NCBI GenBank assembly: GCA_012960135.1
Contig: DUBW01000074.1
Coordinates: 20,520-66,050, forward strand
Length of the DNA: 45,531 nt
From: Methyloprofundus sp.
Lineage (GTDB): Bacteria > Pseudomonadota > Gammaproteobacteria > Methylococcales > Methylomonadaceae
Reading direction: 5' to 3'
Positions 22,288 through 40,343 of the stretch are shown one piece after another. Position 1 is the first letter of the stretch. The number at the start of each line of letters is the position of its first letter. The notes under the pieces were generated by a model that saw only the letters and a list, made by a program, of their open reading frames with translations, ran no database searches and was not told the origin of the DNA. Made by a program: the position numbers and the translations under genes.

Positions 22288-22463
22288 AGGGCTTATACTT
22301 CACGCTGTCACGGAATGCGGAATCCTAACGGCTGTTTTTTTGCCGATAGCTACGTTTCTGAAACAGTTACGTAGTTATCTATGCGCCTGTTTGAGCACCT
22401 TGCTTTCGACAAAAAACAGCTCGCTATCAATTCCTCACCCGTGACAGCGTGAAGTATAGCCCT
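22288..22463. repeat. Palindromic element, copy A, with conserved 20-nt core
   Basis: The outer arms (22288-22313 and 22439-22463) pair over 25 bases with a single extra base; they include CTTCACGCTGTCACGG / CCGTGACAGCGTGAAG. Pairing continues inward around GCTGTTTTTTT / AAAAAACAGC. In the centre CTGAAACAG (22358-22366) and CTGTTTGAG (22387-22395) flank the core TTACGTAGTTATCTATGCGC (22367-22386). The same core, with different arms, occurs at 31606-31625 (reverse) and 40130-40149. It lies between dnaK and dnaJ. Confidence 0.75.
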
Positions 22464-31443: not shown

Positions 31444-31581
31444 TTATTTACCTTGCAAATACTGCTGAATATTTTCCTGACAACTGATAGATACTACATT
31501 GATTTGTTTATTTACGCTGATATAAACATGATAAGGCACCTGGAAATAAATAACCGTCCAATATTTAGGCAGGATGTTTGT
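31444..31581 (-). pseudogene. Unrecognised C-terminal ORF fragment
   Basis: A start-less frame after a stop reads TNILPKYWTVIYFQVPYHVY, then ISVNKQINVVSISCQENIQQ and YLQGK before TAA. It ends 3 bases short of palindromic element C (31585), as if cut by it. Not assigned to any family. Confidence 0.3.
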
Positions 31582-31584
31582 TTA

Positions 31585-31646
31585 TCATCAGTGCTCTAGC
31601 AAGAGGCGCATAGCTAGCTACGTAACTATTGCTACAGTGCTGATGA
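31585..31646. repeat. Palindromic element, copy C, with conserved 20-nt core (reverse)
   Basis: Outer arms TCATCAGTGCTC / CAGTGCTGATGA and inner arms TAGCAAGAG / CTATTGCTA enclose the core GCGCATAGCTAGCTACGTAA (31606-31625), the reverse complement of the core in copies A and B. Two arm mismatches would be G-U wobbles in RNA. At 62 bp it is the most compact copy. It lies in the gap between the COG0523 GTPase and the conserved gene. Confidence 0.75.
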
Positions 31647-31703
31647 CAGAAAAAAGACCAGCAAGGATGGATGATGTGTGTTTCCAGGTGCCTAAGCATA
31701 TAT

Positions 31704-40043: not shown

Positions 40044-40072
40044 ACGCATGGAAAGTAAGCTCTACTTACAAG

Positions 40073-40213
40073 CGCGCACGCAATAATTTAAGCAACTGAC
40101 TTGCCTTTTTATCCGTGATGTAGAAACAGTTACGTAGCTAGCTATGTTCCTGTTTCTATGCCTTGAATACGAATAAAAATCGTGCACCAGATGCTCACTT
40201 TATTACGTGCGCG
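40073..40213. repeat. Palindromic element, copy B, with conserved 20-nt core
   Basis: Ends CGCGCACG / CGTGCGCG with AATAA / TTATT next, a middle pairing of CTTTTTATCCG with CGAATAAAAA, and perfect inner arms TAGAAACAG / CTGTTTCTA (40121-40129, 40150-40158). These surround the core TTACGTAGCTAGCTATGTTC (40130-40149). It has the same architecture as copy A between dnaK and dnaJ, but with different arm sequences. It lies downstream of the cyd operon. Confidence 0.75.
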
Positions 40214-40239
40214 TTCCTTACTTGAACTGGCTAGTATTT

Positions 40240-40343
40240 TAAGACGAGACACCTCGGTGGGAAGTAGGCTTTAGCCTACACGTAAAATCTGCGCGTTACA
40301 CATGTAGGCTAAAGGCCTACTCCCCTCGATACATTCCGTCTTA
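40240..40343. repeat. 104-bp palindromic element with GTAGGCTTTAGCCTAC arms
   Basis: The ends TAAGACG / CGTCTTA and inner blocks AGTAGGCTTTAGCCTACA / TGTAGGCTAAAGGCCTACT pair over most of the length. Each inner block is itself nearly palindromic, so two foldings are possible. It lies 27 bases after element B and differs from it in sequence. Confidence 0.65.

Follow-up and report, generated by a model that had tools for sequence, protein, structure and literature searches.

The window, by which we mean the whole 45,531-nucleotide stretch of Methyloprofundus sp. DNA analyzed here, carries three intergenic palindromic elements. Copy A lies between dnaK and dnaJ, copy B lies directly past the stop of a cobW-type gene, and copy C is flanked by the cytochrome bd subunit II region and a DUF599 gene. 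The elements and their parts are as follows.

22296-22456, + strand: copy A, a 161-bp palindromic element with TA-type ends (TACTTCACGCTGTCACGG/inverted), dnaK-dnaJ intergenic, by boundary call
22294-22295 (left) and 22457-22458 (right), no strand: TA target words of copy A, by sequence and boundary call
22367-22386, + strand: apex core of copy A, by core pattern match
22324-22428, + strand: conserved inner module of copy A, by match to covariance model R1
31535-31692, - strand: copy B, a 158-bp palindromic element with GGCACCTGGAAA-type ends, by boundary call
31532-31534 (left) and 31693-31695 (right), no strand: TAA target words of copy B, as read on the plus strand, by boundary call
31606-31625, - strand: apex core of copy B, by core pattern match
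31563-31666, - strand: conserved inner module of copy B, by match to covariance model R1
40069-40217, + strand: copy C, a 149-bp palindromic element with GGAACGTGCACG-type ends
40066-40068 (left) and 40218-40220 (right), no strand: TTA target words of copy C, by boundary call
40130-40149, + strand: apex core of copy C, by core pattern match
40095-40191, + strand: conserved inner module of copy C, by match to covariance model R1

A sequence-only reading of this DNA had located the three cores, and a search allowing up to 3 mismatches returned exactly these 3 matches, compared to 0.03 expected by shuffling. The 9-base arms said to pair around each core were found to do so at 8/9 positions in A, 8/9 in B, and 9/9 in C. 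Pairing had also been described as extending much further in A and B; the long arms are present there, but the restriction to these two copies did not hold, as copy C is long-armed as well. The three copies are members of different subfamilies of one dispersed palindromic family of ~158 bp. Alignments revealed a gap in the left stem of copy C, which falls below the length of its subfamily.

A second long palindrome (GGGAAGTAGGCTTTAGCCTAC ... GTAGGCTAAAGGCCTACTCCCC) adjoins copy C at window positions 40250-40330. Its style resembles that of the hairpin centers at loci L258 and L259 and of the dnaK-dnaJ gap of genome G002 at locus L115, and it is probably another dispersed repeat.

Copy number, distribution and anatomy

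The core proved over-represented genome-wide. The assembly to which the window belongs comprises 2.5 Mb in 92 contigs, and in it a 17-base core with up to 2 mismatches matched 36 times, compared to 3 matches for the reversed pattern. Whole-element blast with two queries identified 32 and 14 places, partly overlapping. A covariance model was built from alignment A1, which holds 64 of the 89 listed copies, and gave 95 two-strand hits in the window's genome. Because the element is a palindrome, many copies were scored on both strands, and the hits were therefore merged, yielding 63 distinct copies, including a few weak ones. After merging, the loci read contained 165 distinct copies in all. The 117 core-like places were reduced to 91 by removing 15 rows from the 13 off-clade loci together with 11 hand-listed rows that were weak matches or second readings of one palindrome, and alignment A3 comprises the best 150 of 201 matches.

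Within the window's genus, 16 of 18 genomes had model matches, the range being 0 to 135 two-strand hits per genome. Across the order Methylococcales, matches were present in at least 44 of 201 sampled genomes and at least 17 of 48 genera. The hit counts per genome are two-strand, and all these numbers are lower bounds, with 19 candidates scored per genome under strict filters. An exact core scan of the public genome collection returned 57 stretches. Thirteen of these loci are in unrelated bacteria, have weak pairing next to the core, at 2-7 of 10 positions, and were set aside; 41 of the remaining 44 carry titles of Methyloprofundus, methanotrophic Bathymodiolus symbionts, Methylomonas, Methylobacter, and other Methylococcales, and the other three are two Gammaproteobacteria and one stretch titled as a thiotrophic symbiont. 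The plasmid and phage collections held no match to one consensus-like copy. A single exact hit among viral contigs was judged from its sequence to be a chance match and was discarded.

Two further observations concern individual contigs. A contig from the Bathymodiolus heckerae thiotrophic symbiont (L047) carries the element twice, and over 1556 bp its genes share ~79% identity with those of a methanotroph contig (L045); L047 is likely a methanotroph contig misplaced in the wrong assembly, or it may alternatively reflect transfer. At locus L142 of genome G001 (near 1337-1604), two copies with different end classes are adjacent, with a TAA apparently common to both.

Each copy is a single imperfect palindrome, 155-161 bp long in 80 of the 91 copies with boundary calls. 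The apex has the consensus TTRCRTAGCYNGCTATGCGC, mostly closed by AG/CT, and outside it the 64-copy alignment contains variable stems followed by the common motifs CTTTTTGTCCGTC and GACAAACAAAAATCCTGC. The flanking arms had been described as unrelated between copies; they do differ, but subfamilies share both of these motifs, and the arms are not wholly unrelated. The apex and the flanking motifs retain internal mismatches across subfamilies.

Two 165-bp palindromes of genome G006, at L272 (near 1812-1977) and L274 (near 2026-2191), have related ends and a diverged apex, exemplified by TTGCATAG-AACAA-CTATGCGCC in L272. Judged by sequence, these forms suggest that the apex loop may be able to change.

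Pairing of the arms and conservation of the apex

The earlier observation of arms that are altered and yet complementary was confirmed by paired changes in other copies. In the 64-copy alignment, 90.0% of cells were paired compared to 73.7% in shuffled alignments, 219 cells were changed on both sides compared to 74, and the covariation score was 0.401 compared to 0.142, with all slid versions far lower; because the aligned sequences are related, the shuffles do not amount to a significance test. Between full copies with 85-98% identity, we counted 165 compensated pair changes against the ~25 expected under independent change, using 129 of the 165 copies in pairwise comparisons that overlap. 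One-sided changes that broke a pair made up 1046 of 10525 cells in the same identity band, indicating that individual copies decay. Together, the copy number and the paired changes refute chance similarity, a reading suggested by the 13 of 57 exact-hit loci that fell in unrelated bacteria with pairing at 2-7 of 10 positions, and we assign it next to no probability.

Template switching in a quasi-palindrome might also produce paired arms without any selection for folding, the element being otherwise an ordinary MITE. Compensated changes were mildly clustered, with 210 of 740 having a compensated neighbor compared to 140 expected, a difference that is not decisive but that template switching would account for, as it would the commonness of one-sided breaks in close copies; these comparisons are non-independent. 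Left unexplained by such a process are the internal mismatches kept in the apex and flanking motifs across subfamilies. We regard template switching as possible, if somewhat unlikely, and it is compatible with a mobile element, competing only on how the pairing is kept.

Conservation of the apex was evaluated in 60 copies that the model detected and the core pattern missed. In this set, the core window averaged 1.64 bits compared to 1.14 elsewhere and ranked third of 85, behind only versions of itself offset by one or two columns. As the apex was the best-kept part of these pattern-independent copies, core conservation is not merely an effect of the search, in a control that is weaker than a core-blind search since the covariance model itself includes the core. 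Within a single subfamily, represented by 17 of the 32 whole-element blast places, core identity was 0.79, compared to 0.66-0.85 for ends and stems and 0.27-0.28 for flanking DNA. Because the core is kept no better than the rest within the subfamily, we read the constraint as acting on transposing copies rather than after insertion.

These figures bear on the protein-bound cruciform that the sequence-only reading had listed among its options. A bound tip may still be part of the element's biology, but the idea loses ground where the core of inserted copies is preserved no better than its surroundings. A host site of this kind, for example a cruciform bound by protein for chromosome organization and kept for the host's benefit, would be in keeping with an apex constant over a wide range of relatives. 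Counting against it are the range of core (0.79) and stem or end (0.66-0.85) identities in the 17 of 32 copies above, two-strand hits that vary from 0 to 135 between genomes of the genus, and positions that differ between relatives; we consider it highly improbable.

Two finer signals were tried and rejected. Outside the core, unpaired columns were not better kept than paired columns (permutation, 1965 of 10000), leaving recognition of unpaired bases there unsupported. A G-T wobble that looked fixed in the apical stem was considered as a strand signal, being present in 59 of 64 copies, but the position was mixed (G 35, A 24) in 59 letters of the 60 copies not found by core pattern, and the candidate was therefore dropped.

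Insertion sites, gene context and ends

Boundaries were called for 91 of the 165 copies, with none for the other 74, and the target words of the called copies were TAA in 34, TTA in 32, and TA in 25. Since a call required equal words, the count of word pairs resolved by length serves as the test of target repeats. For elements of length 155-160, TTA/TAA words formed 66 equal and 19 unequal pairs, compared to 39 equal and 35 unequal at other lengths. A palindrome alone would favor TTA opposite TAA, and the excess of equal words thus indicates target duplication.

Comparison of orthologous loci, as proposed in the initial reading, identified relatives without the element at three sites. Copy A was absent in 7 relatives with a readable dnaK-dnaJ gap, and 5 of these 7 have the same small dyad, for example CAGGGCTTAACCCCTG, at the position that in the window is occupied by the element and its two TA words. 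The element of locus L014 is absent in L081, and the two fit gap-free if one TTA leaves with it, the triplet in L081 being ATA rather than TTA. At the third site, a single TAA in L087 corresponds to one on each side of the element in L036. Relatives at the copy B site are too diverged for an empty-site comparison. The direct target repeats, the empty sites, and the dispersed copies support the option of a small fold-back mobile element. They do not support insertion into palindromes as a general rule: a small inverted repeat forms the target at dnaK-dnaJ, but the other two empty sites are without a comparable dyad.

The elements were located inside a long open frame in only 4 of the 132 copies with enough flank. 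With context genes called simply as longest ORFs, 126 copies had a gene on each side, of which 33 were sense and 35 antisense between co-directional genes, 31 lay between divergent genes, and the remaining 27 had convergent neighbors. Where a stop codon faced the element, the median gap between the two was 38 bp, and it was 50 bp or less in 69 of 122 cases. A structured RNA, whether cis-regulatory or a small RNA, with a conserved apical loop and spread as a repeat, would be consistent with stems that vary pairwise around a constant apex, and the nearness of stop codons means that many copies may be transcribed. The 33 sense and 35 antisense copies among the 68 between co-directional genes argue against an RNA read in one direction, as do the 31 of 126 between divergent genes, and the target repeats and empty sites also count against this reading. 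No Rfam family matched at gathering score in the window, and the 9 weak matches in six loci were all below cut-off. The structured-RNA option of the sequence-only reading is accordingly disfavored, and we hold it to be quite improbable.

The ends of the elements are conserved within subfamilies and not across the whole family. Nine end classes were chosen by hand, and single-linkage clustering gave five clusters of two or more; as two classes are close and intermediates merge several, part of the variety reflects gradual divergence. One inner-stem class, TCTTCTGCGTTG, occurs with seven of the nine end classes, and the TA-type ends go with a different inner-stem class. The GGAACGTGCACG-type ends of copy C are also found on ~122-bp elements that have no core and a different hairpin center, GCGGGGTCTTTAGCCCCGC (L258, L259, L267, L270), and on shorter elements. 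Ends of the TATACTTCGCGCGG class are found on 163-bp and ~210-bp elements and on palindromes of 28-34 bp.

Several unusual forms were noted beside these classes. The 28-34 bp palindromes (L250 near 2000, L256 near 340, L257 near 460) have two TATACTTCGCGCGG ends and little between them, as if the center had been deleted; those of L256 and L257 look like one place on two contig ends. In genome G025, the ~210-bp copies of L245 and L246 have a left arm lengthened by some 47 bases that include CCTACATGGATGTAGG, and the stretch CTACATGGATGTA is also present in the RU-2/YPAL sequence in the available portion of PMC2759123. From their sequence, these copies are perhaps one palindromic element nested in another. 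Solitary TATACTTCGCGCGGTC ends occur near 2000 at L238, L239, L242, and L244 of G025, with no second end in the scanned stretch, and by eye the sequence beyond several of the solitary ends resembles the element's right half alone.

Proposed mobilization and comparison with known repeats

The family is short (~158 bp), codes for no protein, is present in 63 copies, and has terminal inverted repeats and a target site duplication, as is characteristic of MITEs. We consider it probable (roughly 0.8) that these palindromes are DNA transposons of the MITE class in methanotrophic gammaproteobacteria, that they are non-autonomous and depend on DDE-type transposases acting in trans, and that the apex is kept in transposing copies. 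Neither the searches for two end patterns nor those for two transposase families matched an autonomous element having the same ends. PF13340 was found in G025 only, of 4 genomes, and PF13359 in G025 only, of 8 genomes; the IS ends in G025 are GGGGCTGTTGCC, unlike those of the element. Inspection by eye of the 25 largest ORF clusters beside copies revealed no recurrent helper gene, and no Y1 transposase was noticed there; the one ORF cluster that recurs, in 8 loci, derives from repeats common to those loci. The partner transposase may be lost, missing from the assembly, or beyond the PF13340 and PF13359 families.

In the mechanism we propose, a DDE-type transposase would act in trans on the element ends. 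TTA/TAA triplets presumably fit IS5/PIF-like enzymes and TA an IS630-like enzyme, and we would assign the respective copies to enzymes of these two types. Insertion would duplicate a target word of 2-3 bp. Selection on the copies still transposing would keep the apex module, the folded tip perhaps being bound during mobilization, and individual copies would decay once inserted.

If one transposase bound the ends, variable ends around a constant center would not be expected, and this counts against the mechanism. Alternatively, the hairpin tip, and not the ends, might be what is mainly recognized: the apex module would recruit the machinery as a cruciform or single strand, the fixed arm length would set the cuts, and the ends could vary freely or adapt to different transposases. 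One module could thus have spread with both TTA/TAA-type and TA-type ends. We view tip recognition as doubtful.

The open-licence literature, in the parts available, yielded no earlier description of this methanotroph palindrome family. By analogy, the methanotroph element would work like YPAL, ERIC, RUP, and Correia, so far as these are set out in the accessible text of PMC2229807. The likeness is closest in size to YPAL/RU-2 of Yersinia, described in the available text as a palindromic intergenic mobile repeat of ~167-168 bp with known filled and empty sites (PMC2229807, PMC2759123). From the same text, YPAL has internal inverted repeats, target duplications of 3-26 bp, and termini without TA, whereas here the ends lie within the palindrome and the words are 2-3 bp; compared by eye, the RU-2 sequence in the available part of PMC2759123 is without the apex core. 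RUP of Streptococcus pneumoniae is a small intergenic non-autonomous element with TA targets and IS630-Spn1 as its proposed mover (PMC2229807, in part). RUP ends, as there described, are common to a known IS, whereas here none matched, the ends vary, and the center is constant. ERIC and Correia/NEMIS are presented in the available portion of PMC2229807 as small mobile repeats that form long stem-loops, are bounded by terminal inverted repeats, and carry TA at their ends. By these descriptions they are set apart from the methanotroph element, which has mostly TTA/TAA words and several end classes on one center; ERIC is moreover a 127-bp enterobacterial consensus, differing in length and target words. 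QMITE1 and QMITE2 of Coxiella are palindromic gammaproteobacterial MITEs with shorter derivatives (PMC5896051, PMC10969869, both in part); their direct repeats are 2-4 or 7-9 bp, and the available text describes no constant apex with varied ends.

The GTAG within the apex, which folds as a hairpin, raises the further possibility that these are elements of REP/REPIN type, mobilized by a Y1 (RAYT) transposase that acts on folded single strands. GTAG REPs are dispersed intergenic palindromes with 20-40 bp units, GTAG at one end, and a link to RAYTs (PMC3733652, as far as available). In the methanotroph element, GTAG and the constant part as a whole are at the tip of a ~158-bp palindrome, not at the foot of a short hairpin unit of 20-40 bp. 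Transposition by Y1 enzymes is not expected to leave flanking direct repeats, and such repeats are present here; nor was a recurrent helper gene seen among the 25 ORF clusters. Movement by a Y1 transposase therefore receives very little of our credence.

In MITEs as described in the literature consulted (PMC10969869 and PMC2267715 among others, in the portions available), the ends are the constant part, as expected if a transposase binds them. The methanotroph family reverses this pattern, in that the end classes vary, the tip and total length are near-constant, and two kinds of target word are used. It thereby offers a natural test of the role of a folded tip in recognition, and of joint change in the arms of a palindrome. 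As a common repeat family of methanotroph genomes, including those of deep-sea mussel symbionts, it could aid strain typing and the spotting of misassigned contigs.
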